Below, piece by piece: positions 31,654 to 52,014 of a stretch of DNA of 64,000 nt. A model generated the notes under the pieces. The model had not been told where the DNA came from and searched no databases. It saw only the letters and a list, made by a program, of their open reading frames with translations. Positions within the stretch are counted from its first letter, which is position 1. Every line of letters begins with the position of its first letter. This stretch comes from Cystobasidiopsis lactophilus (Eukaryota > Basidiomycota > Agaricostilbomycetes > Agaricostilbales > Chionosphaeraceae). The stretch is from positions 248,001-312,000 of the forward strand of contig BCIO01000003.1 of assembly GCA_001599975.1 (NCBI GenBank), in the 5' to 3' direction. Made by a program: the position numbers and the translations under genes.

Positions 31654-33282
31654 ATGACAGCTGTCAACCCTGACCTCTCCAACAAGACTCCCAATTCGCG
31701 TTTATCCAAGACCAATGAAAAGTCGGAGTGGTCCTCTCCCGTTGCGTCGCCAGGCCCGACTTGGACTGCATCACCGGCAGCATCGAGGACCGCCCAATTC
31801 TTGCGCGGCCCGCGGCGGACTGTCACTGGCCTATGCTTGATGATTGCTGCTCTACTGATCGTCATCTGTCTGCAGAAGCAACAGAGTTTCAGCAATCTGT
31901 ATGCTTTGAGAACTCCAATGTGGCCGTCGTCGATCCTTCCTGCGATTCGGCAATCCTTTGATGTTCCCGCACCCAAAGGATACCGGTTTCAGAATGTAGA
32001 GTCCTACGGATCACCACCTAACTCAACGTCGGTGACTGTGGTCAGCGCGTACTTTCTGTTGTCGGACTTGGTCCGCCATCCCGAAAGTGGTGAGCGCCCG
32101 CGTTTTTGCTCCTGTCAACGCGCAACCACCTAAACACCGATTGAAAAACAGATTACTGGAATTGGCTCTACAACTTCTTGGCACACGTCGACTGCCCGAT
32201 CGTGTTGTACACCACTCACGACCTTGTGGACCGACTGAAAGAGCTGCGAATGGACAAGCCCATGACCATCATCACCGACTTTGGCCACCCTTGGGACCTG
32301 CCACCGATCAAACAGCTTGGAGGGCTGGTGTGGGAAGAGGCCATGAAGAAGTTGGACCCGGAGGCCGAGATGCATGTGGTGGGCATTTACGGAGCCTGGA
32401 CGGGCAAGCCTTGGATGGTCCAGCAAGCCAAGAATCTGGACCCTTATGGCTCTGATTATTTTGTTTGGGTGCGCATGGCCCTACTATATCCAAATTTGGA
32501 TATACATTGAACGGATTCGCACAGGTCGACGCTGGCGCCTTCCGCGATGCTGAGTCAAAGTACAACATGGCTCTGCTCCCTGATCGTTTCGAAGAGCTCT
32601 ACAACTCGACTAGCATCCCGGACGACACCATCGTTCTCGGCGACACCACGCTAGCTTGGCCAGCCGGGACAGATTACGTCAAAGCGGTCAACGACACAGA
32701 CGAGATGGACCGCGGGGACGAGTACATCCCAGGAGGCTGGTTTGGTGGCACGCATATCCAGGGAGGCTGGTTCGGAGGCAAGCCGGACGCGGTCGACTGG
32801 TGGGCGGCGGAGACGCTCCGGATCACCACCCTCCAAGGCGGGCTGCAAAGGTGGGGCCCTTCTCTCCTTGAGTTCAACGAACTCTTGCTAGAGAGCCCCG
32901 CAGATACGTCGGGGAAGACCAGGACGTTTGGACGCACACAGCCAGGGTGAACTGGCCGCGCGTGCTGGTGATGAATGTTCGTGGACCGCTCCCCCCGCAT
33001 CACTGTATAGTTGATGTTAAACACTGTCCACTGACAGATGTGGGAGAACAACGGCAAGTGCCACCTGGACAACTGGTTCGCCTGGCAAGCTTGGGCGTCG
33101 TCGTGGAACTGCACCATTGCCCTCTGGAGTGCGTGTCGCTTTCACTTGATGTCGTGAGCATGTGTAGACTTGGGGACCGTACAGATGGACCGGCCCTGCA
33201 CAAGCAAGAACAAGAGCTCCTCCTCGAGGCCGCCTTGGTGGCCACCTCCAATGAAACAATTGCAGTTGTGGCTCCCTCATGA
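31654..33282 (+). CDS. HtrL/YibB-domain type II membrane protein, copy B
   Basis: MTAVNPDLSNKTPNSR starts a cytosolic tail of about 55 residues, then the membrane segment GLCLMIAALLIVICL. The lumenal domain aligns with copy A throughout: SVTVVSAYFLLSD, DYWNWLYNFLAHVDCPIVLY, SDYFVWVDAGAFRDAE, DVWTHTARVNWPRVLVMN. The C-terminus is NGPALHKQEQELLLEAAL…VVAPS. Intron positions match copy A, which points to gene duplication. Copy B has an internal duplication, GGWFGGTHIQGGWFGG, where copy A has one GGWFGG. One intron starts GTTCGT (32977). The first intron of the downstream array begins only 32 nt after this stop. Confidence 0.8.
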
Positions 33283-33299
33283 GCTTCCCCGCGCCTCTT

Positions 33300-35590
33300 T
33301 GGATGATTAGAAGGTGCACGAGACTCTCACTGTATGCCAATTGAGCATGAATCACAACTCCAAAGCACAGATGGTCTTGGGACTCGCTGCTCTAGTCCTT
33401 CTTAATCATCACTTCGAGCCACTTCCAATAAAAGTGTCCTAGTAAAAGAGGTCGGTTTGCGCTCTACACTAGTTCAACGAACTCGCTTGAGCTTGCATGC
33501 AAATCGACAGTACCCTCAAGTCTTTCTTCGTTCTTGGTCCCACCACCACGATTTTGGAGTGAAACCGTTCGTTCTTCACCATTCAATTCAGATCACCGTG
33601 TATTTGGTCTAAGGACGTGAACGACGATCAGACTTCTAGAACGCGCTTCGCACCTCGGCCTTCTCCCTCTCAAAACTGGTGCACCAGCTTTCCACCAGCT
33701 TTTATCTCGGAGTACAGAGCTTCCAAAGGTGCGTGGGCTCATCCGTGAGATGCACTTCCATCTCATTGCCTTCAGGGCTTCAAGCACAGATGGCACGAGG
33801 TGGGTCCGCTCTCCCTCTCTAGCTCGATGAGCTACGTTAGACAGCGGTCCGGCCACAGCTATCCGCTTTCGAACCCCACTGGCACTCAGATCGCCTCTAT
33901 TGACTACTTCGAAGTGTTCGTGGCGATCCTTTCCTTAGATGACCTCAAACATTTTCTCAAAAGTTCAGCCACGAGCAGATGCCAGCTTGCACGACCGCTG
34001 GCTTGCCTCTTGACCTTTCCTCTCGCTTCCTTGGCTGAGTGGGAGGTGCGTGATGCTCCTACCTTATGCCATTGAGCATGTTATCAGAATTCCCCCCGCA
34101 CAGATGGGTTTGGGACTCGCCGCTCTGATCCTTCTTGATCGCCACTTCCCTCCCCAGATGTCAAGATAAAAGAGGTTGGTCCGCGCTCTTCATTAGTTTA
34201 ACAACGAACTGACGTTGGAGTGAGGGTGATCCACAGTGACCGCTGGGGGGATTGCGTCAAGTCTTTTCTTCCTTCTCTTTTGGTCCGACCACCATTCTGC
34301 GCGAACTCCGTTCGTTCCTTGTCTACTCTATATCACCACGTTCTCGTGTTGATAAGTGCTGAACACCGCGAACAGAAGTCTGGGCGTTCATGTTTTCTTT
34401 CGCCGAACTATGAAGTGTCGTCTTTTGGTCGCTGGAACTCGAAGGTGCGTGGAGGCTCCCTTTTAGATGCATTAGTATCTTGTATCGAACTTCTGGCACA
34501 GACGGGCCATCTCAACAGTTGACCGACGGGGGATGCGTCAAGTCTTTTCTTCCTTCTCTTTGGTCCCACCACGATGTTGGAGTGAAACCGTTCGTTTTTT
34601 TCCTCATTTACCTCAGATCGCCCTGTGTGTGTTCTTATTGTATAGAGATCGAGCGAACAGACGGCTAGCGTACACCTCAAGCCTCAGCCTTCTCCCTCTC
34701 AAACGTCGTGCATCAGACTTTCTCTCAGAGCGCAAAACTTCGAAGGTGCGTGGGCTTACCCGTGAGATGCGCTTTCGTCTCAGCTGATGCAGTCTGTTGG
34801 CACAGTTGGCACGAGGTGGGTCCGCTCTCCCTCTCTAGCTCGATGAGCTGTGTCCCAGAAAGTCGGATCACAGCTCTGCACCCTCAACTCCCACTCGCAA
34901 TCATGTCGCCTCTAATGACTACGTCGAAGTGTTCGTGGCCGCTCCCCTACCTTAGATGACCTCGAAAGTTTTCTTATTTTTTTGAAGCCGCGGAACAGAT
35001 GTCAGCTTGCACGACCCCTGGCTTGCCTCTTGACCTTTCCTCGCGTTACTTTGAATGAGGCGAAGGTGCGCGAGATTCTCACTGTATGCCAATTGAGCAT
35101 CCCTCCGAGATTGCGATGCACAGATGGTTCTGGGATTCCAGCCGCTCTGACCCTTCTCGATCACCACTTCTATCCACTTCCAATAAAAGTGTCCTATTAA
35201 AAGAGGTCGGTTTGTGCTCTACACTAGTCCAATGAACTACTATCCCAGCCGCAGAATCGACAGTGAACGCTTGGGGGATTGCGTCAAGTCTTTTCTTCCT
35301 CTCTTTGCTCCGACCACCATTCTCCGCGAACTCCATCCGTTCGTTTCTTGCTCTACTCTATATCACCATGAGCTCGTGTTGATAAGTGCTGAACACCGCG
35401 AACAGAAGTCTGGGCGTTCATGTTTGGCTTGCCTCTCTTTCGAAGGGCTATCAAGTGTCGTCTTTTGCTGGAAGTCGAAGGTGCGTGGAGGATCCTTTTA
35501 GATGCTCTAGTATCTTCAGATCTAATCTCAGCACAGACGGGTCATCTCAAATGGGGCATTGCGCTCTCTCCCACGGCTTGGCCTGTTCAG
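33300..35590 (+). repeat. tandem array of spliced-looking units without an ORF
   Basis: Blocks of about 250–360 bp alternate with intron-like segments of 56–61 nt at 33314–33370, 33729–33789, 34046–34103, 34445–34501, 34746–34805, 35066–35123 and 35481–35536. Every donor reads GTGCGTG or a close variant and every acceptor CACAG. The order of block types repeats with a period of about 1,016–1,030 bp. For example CAGCTTGC at 33983 recurs at 35003, and a 37-bp identical stretch at 34358 recurs at 35388. About 2.3 copies are present, with one block missing in the first. No frame is open across the blocks in any copy. AATAAA-like signals lie near 33429 and 35181. Confidence 0.7.
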
Positions 35591-40976: not shown

Positions 40977-41423
40977 AAGATGAGTGGGGCAGATTTGGGA
41001 AGGGGGCTTGTTGTACTGTTTGGGACACGATTCTTATGTTCTGGTTCGATTGGTTTGGACCAGAAGCCCGCGTAGACTGAATTCGGGGAAAGCCCGTTCG
41101 CCACCTCTCTTTTGCTCACGACGGCTCTGGAAGTGGTTTGCCGATGTGAGAATGGGTTCTTTGAACAGACCGTTTTGATGAGAGCTGATCAATTGCAGTC
41201 AAACACCCTTCTCGCTAGACTCGTTGCCCTCCGAGTCCTGCGCCGGAAACGTAACGGCGCTGTGGCTCTTCCTTCTTCCCTTCGAGGTCCGACGCCCGGC
41301 GACTTCTGTGGTCTCTTGGTACAAGCTCAGACGTCTAGGAAAAGCGTGGTGTGAGTGCCGTTGCCGCTCTAGGAGGGCTTCCCGAGCTCAGATTTGTGCA
41401 TCAGGATTCAGGGCCTTATCATC
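40977..41423. other. intergenic between F-box copies 1 and 2
   Basis: A 447-bp gap with no supported ORF; it holds the promoter of copy 2. Confidence 0.45.
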
Positions 41424-42836
41424 ATGCTGCTCACCGACTTGCCTTTCGAAACCTTGACCTTGATCGGCACTTTCCTAGACGGCTCCCCAACGATCAAGAT
41501 GACGGACCGCAAAGGGCCACATCTCGATATCAAGTTGAAAGCTGGCCCCGACTTCGACGCCGCCTTGACGTGCCGCAAACTTTCCAGGGCATTCGTTGCC
41601 GCTTTTTGGCAGAGCCTTGCGGTGGTGTTCTCTAGAAACCCAACCCGCGGCCTTCTCATGGAACGCATGAACCCGGGAGACGTGCTGGACCTCCTCTCCC
41701 TGCTCCAGGGCTTGCAGCGCCAGCTCCTCAACGTCAAAGGCATCGACTTCTTCTTTGCGTCAGTTCCCGCCCAGACAGCCTTCTTCGGCATCATCGTGTC
41801 GACGGCCGCTCTAGTCAATCGACCGGTCAGCCTGAGTCTTACTTTCAACAACACCAGCGCGCGTGATGTCAAGGCCGTTCTGGACAGCGACGTGTGGCCG
41901 AAGGATGCTCTGCGCACCTTGCGCATCTGGAGGGCCGGCGACCCCGACAGGCCTTACCTTTTCGACGGGCCGATCGCGCTCGATGCATTTCCCAAGCTCA
42001 GCTACTGTGAGGTCAAAGAGACCTCTTGCAAAGTGTCGCAATCCAGTCATCTTCATCCTTTGGGCTCAAAAGATAGCATTGTGTGGCTCCGTGGAGGAAG
42101 TGGGCTCAGACCCAGGACAGCATCACTCTGCTTGGACGATGGCCACCCACTGTGCCGCGGCTCGCCACAATGGCTAAGACACTTTCTTCAAGAGGAGCGT
42201 CACCTTTGGAGAATGGATGTGTCTACTTTGCCTCCAGAACCCCATGGGCTCCCGATCGACTGGGCCGCGTTCGCCGCCGATTTGCCACCTTCTCTCCGCT
42301 ACTTCTCGCTTGCGATCAAGTACACGTCCGAGAATCCAAATACCTGTCGGTTCCCGAACTTCGATAGCTGGAAGGCGCTGTCGCACTTGAAAAAACTCGC
42401 CATTTTGGTCCTCGCTTTCCTCCACACCAACGCAGCACCCGGGCCTGTCCAAAACCCGGTGGCCGCACTGCCTTCTTCCGACCGAGGTCCTTTCGCACTC
42501 CAAACGCTAGCGCTAGCCAACGTGCACACTCTCATGGTGCGCATCGGCAGCGAGGATCTCGAGCTGCCGCCGGAAGACGCCACGAGTGTTGTCGAGGCCT
42601 TGCGCCTTTTGCTCGCTCAAGATCAACTACTTCTACCCTCCCTCCAAACGCTTTGGATAAGTGGGCCAACGAGCACGCTCAAACACTTCACCCCCGAAGT
42701 GGCCGCGATCCATGCGCACGCCAAGAGCAAGGGCGTCAGGATTCGCTTTGCTACAGGCGAAGCAATTCAAGTGCGTTTCCCCTCATCTTGGCTTTCTTGC
42801 TCATGTGCTGATGTTTCGTTGCCGCTTTATCAGTAA
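41424..42836 (+). CDS. F-box protein, cluster copy 2
   Basis: MLLTDLPFETLTLIGTFLDG is the N-terminal F-box. Landmarks CRKLSRAFVAAFWQSL, SKDSIVWLRGG, WKALSHLKKLAIL and GPFALQTLALANVHTL align with copies 1 and 3. The frame is open to a TAA at 42834–42836. A 62-nt in-frame intron (GTGCGT…TATCAG) may be spliced out just before that stop, which would remove the C-terminal VRFPSSWLSC segment and end the protein at GEAIQ. Copies 1 and 3 have an intron at the equivalent place, which supports this. Confidence 0.86.
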   Translation: MLLTDLPFETLTLIGTFLDGSPTIKMTDRKGPHLDIKLKAGPDFDAALTCRKLSRAFVAAFWQSLAVVFSRNPTRGLLMERMNPGDVLDLLSLLQGLQRQLLNVKGIDFFFASVPAQTAFFGIIVSTAALVNRPVSLSLTFNNTSARDVKAVLDSDVWPKDALRTLRIWRAGDPDRPYLFDGPIALDAFPKLSYCEVKETSCKVSQSSHLHPLGSKDSIVWLRGGSGLRPRTASLCLDDGHPLCRGSPQWLRHFLQEERHLWRMDVSTLPPEPHGLPIDWAAFAADLPPSLRYFSLAIKYTSENPNTCRFPNFDSWKALSHLKKLAILVLAFLHTNAAPGPVQNPVAALPSSDRGPFALQTLALANVHTLMVRIGSEDLELPPEDATSVVEALRLLLAQDQLLLPSLQTLWISGPTSTLKHFTPEVAAIHAHAKSKGVRIRFATGEAIQVRFPSSWLSCSCADVSLPLYQ

Positions 42837-43327: not shown

Positions 43328-44786
43328 ATGCTGCTCACGGATTTGCCTGTCGAGGTGCTCACCTTGATTGGCACCTTCTTGGACGGCGCTCCGACGATCC
43401 AAATGTCGGATGTCGTCACGCCGCCTTTGCCCCAGCGACCTTGGATGCGGGGTTCAACGACATCGGTCACCAGCTTGACGGTCGGCCCAGACGTCAAGGC
43501 CGCATTGACCTGCCGCAAGCTCAACAACATCTTTACCCAAGCGTTCTGGCACCATCTGAACGTCTCTTTCAATGAAGCTGTCCGCGGCATACCCGGCAGA
43601 ATTACCGGCGAGAGCGTTATGGACCTCTTTCGACTGTTGGATCGCATCCAACGCCCTCTCCTCAAGGTCAAGAGCATCGATTTCAGTTTTGGCGAAGCTG
43701 GCTCGAGCCTCGTCTATTTCACCGCCATCATGTCTACCGCAGCACTGGCGGGCAAGAGCCTCGATCTGCGCTTTCACTTCACCAAAACCCGCGGCGATAA
43801 TCTCATCGCCATCTTGTCCAGCAAGCTATGGCCCAAAGAAGGCTTGATATACCTCAACGTACGGGATTGCCGCCACTTTACCGACCCTATCGCCCTGGAC
43901 GGCTTCCCCAGGCTGGGTCGAGTCGACATCATCGAAAGCGCCTGCGGGGTATCTTACGCCGACGTCGCCCACCCTCTCGGGTCAAGTGATAGAATATGGT
44001 GGTCGCGCGGGAGCAATGGCAGACTAGCAGCAAGAGGGACGACGGTGCAGCTCCGAGACAGCCATCCCATGGTCCTCGGCTCACCGCATTGGCTTCAGGA
44101 CAGCTGTGGCTCTCGAGAAGGTAGCAGGCTTTTCATCATGAAAGTGGTAGCCCCAGCACCCCAGACCAGCACTCTTCGACTGGACTGGCGAGCCTTCGCC
44201 GAGGATCTGCCAGCCTCGATCCGTTACTTGGCCCTTTCTTTCCACTACAAGCATGGCGACCTCGACACCTTTCGATTTACCGATTTCCGAGACTTTGGTG
44301 TCCTTTCGCATCTAACCAAGCTCTCCACCTTTGTCGTCGCTTTCAAAAGTCAAGGCGCGGTCCCGGAGAGTGTGGCCAATGGTACATGGGCCCTTACACA
44401 GGCTGTTTGTGGCCCTTTGGGCCTTCACAATCTGGCACTACCTGCTCTCCTTACCCTCGCTGTGCGCGTTGGCGACGACGGAGCAGACCTGCCCTTCCCA
44501 CAGGCCGCCGCCGTCCTCTGGGCTCTTTGCGATCTATTGGCTCGCCCGACGTCCCTCACCAAACTATACGTCTTTGTACCGGAAGCCGCCCTCAAAGACC
44601 TCGCGCAAGAGTTGAAAGCGGTACGCGATGCTGGTCGGCTCAAAGGCATCAAGGTTCACAGCTGTCCGTCTGCCCGATACAAGTCCGCTCTTCCTCTCAT
44701 ATCCCACACTAGTAATCTAATATGCTTCCATCGTTAGGGCCAAGTACAGCTCCTTGCTTCAGAAGCAAGTTCGCCATAATTTGTAA
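43328..44786 (+). CDS. F-box protein, cluster copy 3
   Basis: MLLTDLPVEVLTLIGTFLDG begins the F-box. Landmarks CRKLNNIFTQAFWHHL, SSDRIWWSRG, FGVLSHLTKL and GPLGLHNLALPALLTL align with copies 1 and 2. A final intron 44683–44737 (GTCCGC…CGTTAG) joins ARYK to AKYSSLLQKQVRHNL and a stop at 44784–44786, matching the exon structure of copy 1. Unspliced, the frame would end at 44737 in LICFHR. Shared intron position shows descent by tandem duplication. Confidence 0.87.
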
Positions 44787-45180
44787 CTTAATTGGGCGTT
44801 CAAGGGTGGCGTTGTTCCGGGTTTTACTTTTGTATTATATGGCAACCGAATAAGGGTCGAGTGAACCAGGAAATCCTCACTGCACCAGAAGCGCAAGAGA
44901 GAACCTCAACGTCGCCACAGCCTCGGCCCGCGCCTTCATTGACCTGAGCCGGCGACCTTCCCTTTGTCTCGCCGTCTGGCTTCTACGCTAGCTTTTGGCG
45001 TGCTGTTAATTGGATTCTCCTTACTTCAGCCAAGAGCCTGCTCGCACCAGACGCCTCCCTTTTAGCTTCGTCGGCCGCCCTTCGGCGTTTATTGCCCTGA
45101 AAGTTCTCCTTCTCCAGTCAACGAGAGCTGTCAAGTTCTACTCACCCTTGTGGCTCTCGAAAGACTTCCTCTGCGAAAAC
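44787..45180. promoter_or_regulatory. intergenic region carrying the first copy of a duplicated leader
   Basis: Bases about 45025–45140 contain AGCCAAGAGCCTGCTCGCAC and further matching sequence found again at about 46486–46575, upstream of F-box copy 4. See findings. Confidence 0.55.
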
Positions 45181-46216: not shown

Positions 46217-46690
46217 TCTTCTTCATCAACTTGTTCATCCGAGCCTTCCTTCGCTTGTATACATCTCTTGTCTTGTAACAGTCTGAAACCGAAAAACCTT
46301 GCTGTTCCTGTTGCTCGCGAGGCTTGTGAGAGTAGACCAGAAGCGTGGTTTCAAGCCGGCTTCAGCCTCAGCCTTGCGCCACCTTCTCTCCAATTCTTGA
46401 CCTGTGCCGGCGATCTTCCTGCCTCGCTATCTGGCTTCAGCGAGAGCTCTTGTCGTGCTTTAGATCGCACTCTCCACACTCCAGCCAAGAGCCTGCTCGC
46501 ACCAGACGCCTCCCTTTTAGCTTCTTCATCCCCGGGCCCATCTCCTTCTCCTGTCAACGAGAGCTGTCAAATTTTGTTGCTGTCCCGTTGCTCTTGCAAG
46601 AGTCCAGTTCTCATTGTAAGCCATTTTAACCGCTCTGCCACGGGTGAACGTCTCTCGAATCAAGGCAGCAGGACTGCGCCAGTGGCAATC
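46217..46690. promoter_or_regulatory. intergenic region carrying the second copy of a duplicated leader
   Basis: About 46486–46575 repeats the leader found upstream of the 45181 gene. It lies about 120–200 bp before the F-box copy 4 start. An upstream in-frame extension of that F-box ORF (from 46268) lies here but begins at a non-ATG codon and is probably untranslated. Confidence 0.55.
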
Positions 46691-51486: not shown

Positions 51487-52014
51487 TCAGTAGTTATGCC
51501 TACTGTCGTGAGGTTCCCGTTTGACCTGATGGGCATCGTGAGGTTCCGGTTTGACCTGATGGGCATCGTGAGGTTCCGGTTTGACCTGATGGGCAGGTGG
51601 GTGAGCCTCCGGTTCGCCCTGATGGGCAGCTGGATTTTGTTGGCAAGGAGGGTTGCAATCCTCGGGAATGACATCCACGTCCGGCAGAGTTGAAGTCCGC
51701 GATCTGCAACACACACTATAATTTTGACGTATGGCAAGGCGCCTGGTGGCGTCCAGATCACTCAGGCCCAAGTGCGTATGGACGTAAGCGTAACACATCT
51801 TGTGAACGGCGGTCCCATCTTGGAAAACCTGAAAGGGCGTCGCCCCGTCAAAGTTGTCGGCAATGTAGTGCATCCCAGGATAATGATGGGCGAATATCCA
51901 CAAGCCATCCGCCACATCTTGAAGCTCCTGGCAGGGTTGCTGTACGCCTTTGCCAGACGCGTGCACCCGATGGCACCACTGGCATTTTCGCTGCCACCAC
52001 TGCCAGACGCACAT
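51487..52014 (-). CDS. unknown Cys/His/Trp-rich protein with C-terminal 10-residue repeats
   Basis: The ATG at 52014 gives MCVWQWWQRKCQWCHRVHAS, with a C…CxxCH-like cluster that could bind zinc. Next is ADGLWIFAHHYPGMHYIADN, then VHKMCYAYVHTHLGLSDL. The C-terminus contains AHQVKPEPHD repeated about three times, encoded by the 30-bp direct repeats at 51508–51597. The protein is 175 residues with no intron needed. An upstream in-frame extension of 11 codons is also open. No family is recognised. A second minus frame over the repeat is open too, so coding status rests mainly on the Cys/His-rich front half. Confidence 0.5.
   Translation of the reverse strand: MCVWQWWQRKCQWCHRVHASGKGVQQPCQELQDVADGLWIFAHHYPGMHYIADNFDGATPFQVFQDGTAVHKMCYAYVHTHLGLSDLDATRRLAIRQNYSVCCRSRTSTLPDVDVIPEDCNPPCQQNPAAHQGEPEAHPPAHQVKPEPHDAHQVKPEPHDAHQVKREPHDSRHNY
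51508..51597 (+). repeat. 30-bp direct tandem repeats
   Basis: Three units of GTGAGGTTCCGGTTTGACCT plus GATGGGCATC, nearly identical, with a diverged fourth unit to about 51630. On the minus strand they encode AHQVKPEPHD. Confidence 0.85.

Follow-up and report, generated by a model that had tools for sequence, protein, structure and literature searches.

Results

A tandem array of intron-like segments

We describe here a tandem array on the forward strand of contig 3 of the basidiomycete Cystobasidiopsis lactophilus. It occupies 33.3-35.54 kb of the window, by which we mean the 64,000-nucleotide stretch at contig positions 248001-312000 (the genome comprises 22.1 Mb in 8 contigs), and lies directly downstream of a predicted protein gene read from the same strand. 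A 1.02-kb unit, present about 2.2 times, makes up the array, in which we count 18 intron-like segments assigned to types A to H. An initial annotation had recognised seven of these segments, 56-61 nt in length, and all seven are real: A1 (33314-33370, 57 nt), B1 (33729-33789, 61 nt), A2 (34046-34103, 58 nt), D1 (34445-34501, 57 nt), B2 (34746-34805, 60 nt), A3 (35066-35123, 58 nt) and D2 (35481-35536, 56 nt), the last of these being the final intron of the array. The lengths it gave for the intervening blocks (358, 256, 341, 244, 260 and 357 nt) are likewise correct, as is the higher-order repeat of about 1.02 kb, whose copy number we set at about 2.2. The description is incomplete in one respect: the exon-like blocks hide 11 more intron-like segments: G1 (33451-33510), F1 (33567-33631), H1 (33800-33858, starting 10 nt past B1), C1 (33916-33978), G2 (34175-34236), E1 (34310-34375), F2 (34590-34660), H2 (34816-34873), C2 (34931-34998), G3 (35206-35263) and E2 (35339-35405).

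Along the array the order is A1 G1 F1 B1 H1 C1 / A2 G2 E1 D1 F2 B2 H2 C2 / A3 G3 E2 D2. The two copies of the higher-order repeat, at 33516-34515 and 34538-35550 on the forward strand, are 75.9% identical, and many repeat spacings fall at 1015-1040 nt; E1 and E2 agree at 62 of 66 aligned bases. The exons between segments measure 56-97 nt, apart from a 10-nt exon separating B and H. DNA searches of the 22.1-Mb genome for the unit matched the array only, in a first pass that may miss weak or common matches.

All 18 segments start with GT and end with AG, these ends having been one of the grounds on which they were chosen. Their donors (GTGCG, GTTCG, GTGAG) and acceptors (CACAG, AACAG) are typical of the genome, being common among introns flanked by coding sequence. 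The two ends of a segment are, moreover, generally complementary. A run of at least four pairs can form between the ends in 16 of the 18 (15 detected by scanning for end pairing, A1 by folding), the first 4-11 bases being able to pair. In A1 a GTGC/GCAC end stem encloses an inner ATGC/GCAT hairpin; the end stem measures 11 bp in G1, G-U pairs included, 9 bp in C1 (folding z-score -4.9), 8 bp in F2 and in G3, and 6 bp in E1 and in E2. The end stem is unformed in F1 and G2, which were positioned by eye and by homology, to F2 and to G1 and G3 respectively.

When the array is scanned uniformly for end-paired GT..CAG segments, its forward strand yields 15 that do not overlap and its reverse strand none, and a reverse-strand reading was rejected. 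Dinucleotide shuffles of the array (n = 200) yield 0.71 such segments (sd 0.85, maximum 3). Among 600 background windows drawn from 264 kb of genomic sequence, namely the window plus 200 kb of chosen, non-random stretches on contigs 1, 3 and 4, the maximum is 12 and none reaches 15. The segments of the array thus exceed chance.

Splice signals are better conserved than exons

Since the segments had been picked for their ends, conservation was measured by a one-copy test, in which introns recognised in one copy only were looked up in the other. For introns found in copy 2 and checked in copy 1, 44/47 donor and 44/48 acceptor bases are identical, against 349/430 in exons and 250/385 in the rest of the introns; donor and acceptor together (88/95) exceed the exons with p = 0.006, and none of 987 shifted masks does as well. 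In the opposite direction the figures are 33/36 for donors, 34/36 for acceptors, 320/399 for exons and 198/289 for the rest of the introns (67/72 versus 320/399, p = 0.007; 4 of 987 shifted masks as good). Splice sites are therefore less changed between copies than exon bodies, as the initial annotation had proposed. When ten intron pairs are pooled, identity is 56/59 in donors, 56/60 in acceptors, 241/306 in the donor-side (5') part and 78/174 in the 3' linker, the border between the last two being set at 60% of each aligned intron and not by structure; exons score 414/506. The linker lies far below the exons (p = 1e-19). Alignment of the copies also reveals changes within stems: T-A to T-G in the inner hairpin of B, and T-G to T-A, as well as T-A to T-G with a bulge, in the end stem of C. 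Such changes are one-sided and hence fit the stems without proving them.

A second tandem duplication, at contig 3:196910-198932, offers a calibration. Its unit is likewise about 1.02 kb long, the copies are 85.6% identical, and what has been duplicated is the end of a CRIPT gene (Pfam Cript, E 4e-14), namely its last exons together with the 3' flank. Between its copies the six introns are identical at 35/36 donor, 32/35 acceptor, 168/190 5'-part and 77/120 linker positions, so that donor and acceptor rank above the 5' part and the 5' part above the linker, as in the array. The array introns thus diverge like the introns of a real gene. The coding exons of CRIPT are identical at 104/106 positions, compared with 71/84 for the last exon with its untranslated region (UTR) and 354/398 for downstream noncoding sequence; given this contrast, the array exons, at 82%, behave as noncoding parts do. 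The same 104/106 identity raises the possibility that the second set of CRIPT 3' exons is in use. The CRIPT linker, for its part, is less conserved than the downstream noncoding sequence (p = 2.8e-9), and at both loci divergence in the sequence leading up to the acceptor outpaces that of other noncoding DNA nearby. This may reflect faster mutation there, or constraint on the remainder.

Coding potential of the array

The initial annotation saw no frame open across the blocks. This stands when its seven introns, C1 and C2 are removed (stop-to-stop runs of up to 176 codons exist). When all 18 introns are removed, homologous frames are open from stop to stop in both copies, over 123 codons in the first and 173 in the second, yet without sign of coding constraint. 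Other frames are also open over 99-101 codons after the same removal, so that openness reflects the stop-poor, pyrimidine-rich nature of the sequence.

These homologous frames speak for a fast-evolving protein gene present in two or three copies and read through the 18 introns, and so does the net effect of the exon indels, which is a multiple of three in both FB (11+1) and ED (10-4). We nevertheless regard such a gene as very improbable. Mismatches between copies fall on the three codon positions at 9/9/7 in FB, 5/4/5 in HC and 3/4/4 in CA, with no codon-position bias in any frame of these exons. Changed codons of the three exons taken together divide into synonymous and non-synonymous at 5:32, 6:29 and 6:31 in the respective frames, again with no synonymous enrichment. 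Exon indels between copies measure 1, 2, 4, 9, 10 and 11 nt; those in the A-G and G-E exons change the frame, and in copy 1 each frame of the A-G exon contains stops. A protein search with 48 candidates brought up no homologue at E <= 1. Compared with each other, the array copies show no constrained reading frame.

A row of pseudogenes is harder to dismiss. An intron-dense gene could have been duplicated 3' of its neighbour and have decayed, its splice sites not yet mutated. Pieces of 117 and 99 amino acids (aa) from the open frames of the two copies align with 54% identity, the frames themselves are open at homologous places, and the identity of the exons is near that of the intron 5' parts. 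Exons of 10 nt are, besides, of the microexon kind seen in coding genes, which the B-H exon resembles. Plain decay, however, does not predict that splice signals outlast exons, as they do even in the one-copy test. Beyond the lack of homologues just noted, no Pfam family matches the frames at E <= 0.1, a search of the organism's own genome returns below E 0.01 the array alone (one other place gives E 0.03), and the openness of the other frames detracts from that of the homologous ones. Decay, which the initial annotation had named as its main alternative, seems to us possible and on the whole unlikely.

The array was also considered as a host of small nucleolar RNAs (snoRNAs) and rejected as such: Rfam gives nothing at E <= 5 between 31 and 38 kb, and the array lacks an exact C box accompanied by a D box and terminal stem, H/ACA snoRNAs being judged through Rfam only. 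ARAGORN finds no tRNA in the window.

The upstream gene and its junction with the array

The predicted gene preceding the array (31654-33282, forward strand) has six predicted exons which, spliced by hand and translated, give a protein of 446 aa. Its relatives in a phmmer search are three Sporobolomyces hypothetical proteins, P0001-P0003 (E 1.3e-67 to 1.7e-66). The name HtrL/YibB attached to it earlier is not confirmed: the protein matches no Pfam family at E <= 0.1, and P0001 and P0002 reach only 12.1 and 12.3 bits against HtrL_YibB (PF09612; cut-off 24.1; E 0.13-0.15). A search of the whole genome with PF09612 gave no match anywhere, controls included, and is uninformative. A further relative of the protein family lies at contig 4:1443081-1443560. 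The array was also examined for homology to the upstream protein itself and this was rejected, the best E in a tblastn search of the array with the 446 aa being 0.14.

The end of the last exon of this gene (33275-33313), which holds the stop codon, is homologous to the C-A exon of the repeat; from the stop codon itself (33280-33282) as far as the first donor (33314), the sequence shows homology to both C-A exons. The first donor does lie just past the stop, as noted initially, at a distance of 31 nt rather than 32. The homology of the exon end makes a 3' UTR or a read-through transcript plausible, an extended 3' UTR having been one of the two readings offered in the initial annotation. One could go further and envision an extended 3' UTR whose splicing past the stop codon controls the mRNA through nonsense-mediated decay. 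The proximity of the first donor, the homology of the stop-bearing exon and the presence, at the CRIPT locus likewise, of an intron-like segment past the stop codon all speak for this. Yet an AATAAA at 33427, 113 nt past the first donor, could serve to terminate the mRNA, leaving it a single 3' UTR intron (another AATAAA lies at 35182), and the 17 introns further downstream would mean a constant target of decay. As a 3' UTR bearing all 18 introns is expected to trigger nonsense-mediated decay, the upstream mRNA probably includes no more than the first unit. We rate control of this kind as rather improbable.

Complementarity of intron ends across the genome

The pairing seen in the array belongs to a wider pattern. 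Genome-wide, on both strands, GTGCG-CGCACAG occurs 1108 times (77 for the reversed-pattern control) and GTTCG-CGAACAG 845 times (control 305); with acceptors swapped, GTGCG-CGAACAG occurs 246 times (control 163) and GTTCG-CGCACAG 177 times (control 182). The odds ratio for these four counts is about 21. GTGAG-CTCACAG occurs 717 times (control 53), against 219 (control 70) for the swapped GTGAG-CGCACAG. All genome-wide counts take in chance palindromes and both-strand twins. In the 264 kb, at intron spacing, the counts are GTGCG..CGCACAG 21 versus GTGCG..CGAACAG 0, GTTCG..CGAACAG 22 versus GTTCG..CGCACAG 1, and GTGAG..CTCACAG 8 versus GTGAG..CGCACAG 6, these counts including four array introns and some overlapping or reverse-strand twins. 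AG is the preferred dinucleotide after the hairpin, with 21, 22 and 8 matches as opposed to 0-8 for any other single dinucleotide. No diagonal excess of this sort appears in the 264 kb for eleven other donor pentamers tried.

The ends are complementary from G+1 paired with C-3 onward, leaving an AG overhang. Among 80 coding-flanked introns (the non-overlapping members of 88 candidates chosen by coding flanks, a donor of the form GT[AGT][ACG]G and a branch motif) this register is unique: in 15 of them the ends form a run of 5 pairs or more, and slides of -2, -1, +1 and +2 give 4, 1, 0 and 0. Donor-acceptor complementarity is thus a strong property of the class. As a fact of sequence it is a more solid result than the array, and a more interesting one. 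Among the literature matches listed, from a searched collection that most subscription papers fall outside, none reports pairing between the donor and the acceptor of fungal introns.

Complementary ends could alternatively be the worn terminal inverted repeats of introner-like mobile elements and have no part in splicing. The end stems do look like short terminal inverted repeats, and fungal introner-like elements are described as having inverted repeats and stable folds in the part of PMC8469720 that treats them. On the other hand, three different end sequences covary, pairing is confined to a single register, and the internal sequences of the listed matches look unrelated by eye, save for one near-identical family. 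Moreover, AG precedes the donor in only 14 of the 51 perfect-stem matches of the 264 kb, which speaks against a 2-nt AG duplication, the sole target duplication examined. An origin of the paired ends in mobile elements we consider doubtful. The near-identical family, four introns at contig 1:2581556, 2635036, 2703573 and 2737309, may represent a dispersed gene family or a mobile element.

Folding of the introns

In RNA folds of introns from the array and neighbouring genes, the first bases often pair with those just before the terminal AG. Folding z-scores range from -4.9 to +0.3, and several of these introns are accordingly no stabler than their shuffles. Many of the introns listed seem, in addition, to bear an inner hairpin whose 3' arm contains a branch-point CTGAY. 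Permutation is no more than suggestive of a hairpin at the branch point. An inner helix of at least 5 bp occurs in 24 of 36 introns, versus 16.8 (sd 2.4) when permuted and 16 after reversal of the upstream part, and in 14 of 22 stem introns (9.6, sd 1.8); coding-flanked introns give 26/77 (24.8, sd 3.4). For helices of at least 6 bp the figures are 10/36 (6.8, sd 2.1), 7/22 stem introns (3.5, sd 1.5), 14/77 coding-flanked introns (8.2, sd 2.3) and, where the outer stem is below 4, 8/61 (4.8, sd 1.7). At 7 bp or more, 3 of 36 introns compare with 2.3 permuted.

Beyond 5 bp the end stem has no clear excess of pairing at positions 6-11 in the 51 stem introns, which include the same array introns and twins as above. 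In a set of 70 introns, selected by hand and without a fixed rule from about 100 listed of the 717 GTGAG-CTCACAG matches (palindromic twins, the near-identical family and others were dropped), position 7 is paired in 39/70 versus 29.3 (sd 4.0), positions 6, 8 and 9 less so.

Other features

Two adjacent long open frames of the window, 41394-42836 and 43328-44737, share a 96-nt stretch at 78% identity; in the second, an F-box-like match is weak (E 0.01) and below the cut-off. A sequence of about 130 bp is repeated at 44935-45069 and 46394-46524 (83% identity, 1.46 kb apart), and a 30-bp tandem repeat is present four times at 51506-51628. A direct tandem duplication of 121 nt, 92% identical, lies at L015:4885-5130. 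A neighbouring protein of the window has no relatives in viral contigs, and a protein search with it was also empty.

Discussion

Our results favour, if narrowly, the view that the array is a noncoding, still-spliceable tandem exon block in which splicing is maintained, transcription and splicing being deduced from the sequence. The spliced noncoding transcript proposed in the initial annotation agrees with the preserved splice signals and the lack of coding constraint, and departs from what we find in that its blocks contain further introns. The array would have arisen by tandem duplication of a 3' exon block that is still transcribed and still spliced. It would begin within the last exon of the upstream gene, the end of which would itself be a copy of the C-A exon. 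The forward strand would be transcribed, and the product would be a tail of the upstream gene, comprising the first unit with its AATAAA, or else a separate spliced noncoding RNA. Splice sites would be kept functional by selection as the exons drift. The introns of the array would be spliceosomal and members of a structured class found through the genome; the end-to-end stem could bring donor and acceptor close to each other and contribute to the choice of AG, and members of the class would often carry a second hairpin between the donor and the branch region.

Several of our own observations weigh against this interpretation. Exons (82%) and intron 5' parts (79%) are about equally conserved (p = 0.31), and the exons may therefore simply be neutral. 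The pooled comparison of splice signals (112/119) with exons, at p = 4.5e-4, is inflated because the seven segments recognised initially were chosen for splice-like ends and types E-H partly for their end stem; the one-copy test gives the weaker p = 0.006-0.007. By the same selection, the stems of types E-H cannot count as independent evidence. Introns A and G each enter two comparisons, which leaves the pooled counts not fully independent, and gene conversion could be another source of patches of identity. In one frame of exon A-G, 6 synonymous and 5 non-synonymous codon changes separate copies 1 and 3, in a frame that contains stops. A simple branch motif ([CT]T[AG]A) is absent from several array introns, in which weak motifs may serve. 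Finally, the 15 of 80 coding-flanked introns with end runs of at least 5 pairs compare with 8.65 (sd 2.41) when acceptors are permuted; this excess is modest, so that stems are a tendency and not a rule for every intron.

It is tempting to speculate further that in this yeast lineage a sizeable class of U2 introns couples the choice of 5' and 3' splice sites by direct pairing, from G+1 with C-3 onward and with the AG overhanging, often aided by a second hairpin near the branch point. The array would then be an RNA gene in which what is conserved best is a series of these stem introns. We advance this combined proposal tentatively and with considerable doubt. If the two splice sites of an intron do covary so as to be able to pair, the matching of donor to acceptor, elsewhere performed by proteins and small nuclear RNAs, would in this lineage be partly encoded in the RNA of the intron. 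End pairing might also provide an additional signal for intron annotation; in the present case it exposed introns missed by the earlier reading. The array itself is a natural setting in which to ask if selection can act on splicing when there is no coding content.

Spliced long noncoding RNAs of fungi, too, have noncoding exons with preserved splice sites. The array differs from them in its tandem higher-order repeat and in carrying 18 very short introns within 2.3 kb. Nothing similar to a spliced noncoding repeat of this kind appears among the literature matches listed.

As for the introns, the symmetrical introns derived from stwintrons and the introner-like elements share with ours terminal inverted repeats and a strong fold. 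As described in PMC8469720, these are recently multiplied sister introns with inverted repeats of 45-55 nt, whereas the stems described here are mostly of 4-11 bp and the internal sequences look unrelated by eye; the portions of PMC8476143 concerned with fungal introns treat introners only generally. The intermediate and nonconventional introns of euglenids resemble ours in that RNA structure joins the ends of the intron. According to PMC4770533, the best-conserved pairs of nonconventional introns join +4..+6 with -8..-6, while here pairing starts from +1 with -3, and a "conventional/intermediate" subtype has canonical borders on both sides. Nonconventional introns of the euglenid type were rejected for the array, given the GT-AG borders of its 18 segments, which follow from how these were chosen. 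A dependence between donor and acceptor bases within the intron has also been found by a genomic language model in Saccharomyces cerevisiae; the passages of PMC12513839 that report it describe neither base pairing nor complementary covariation of the sites, in contrast to what we observe. A mechanical analogy exists with the zipper and downstream stems of S. cerevisiae introns. There, as presented in part of PMC12350175, structure inside U2-type introns shortens the distances between splice signals, and the introns described here would share this property. They differ in that the bases of the splice sites themselves can pair and covary.

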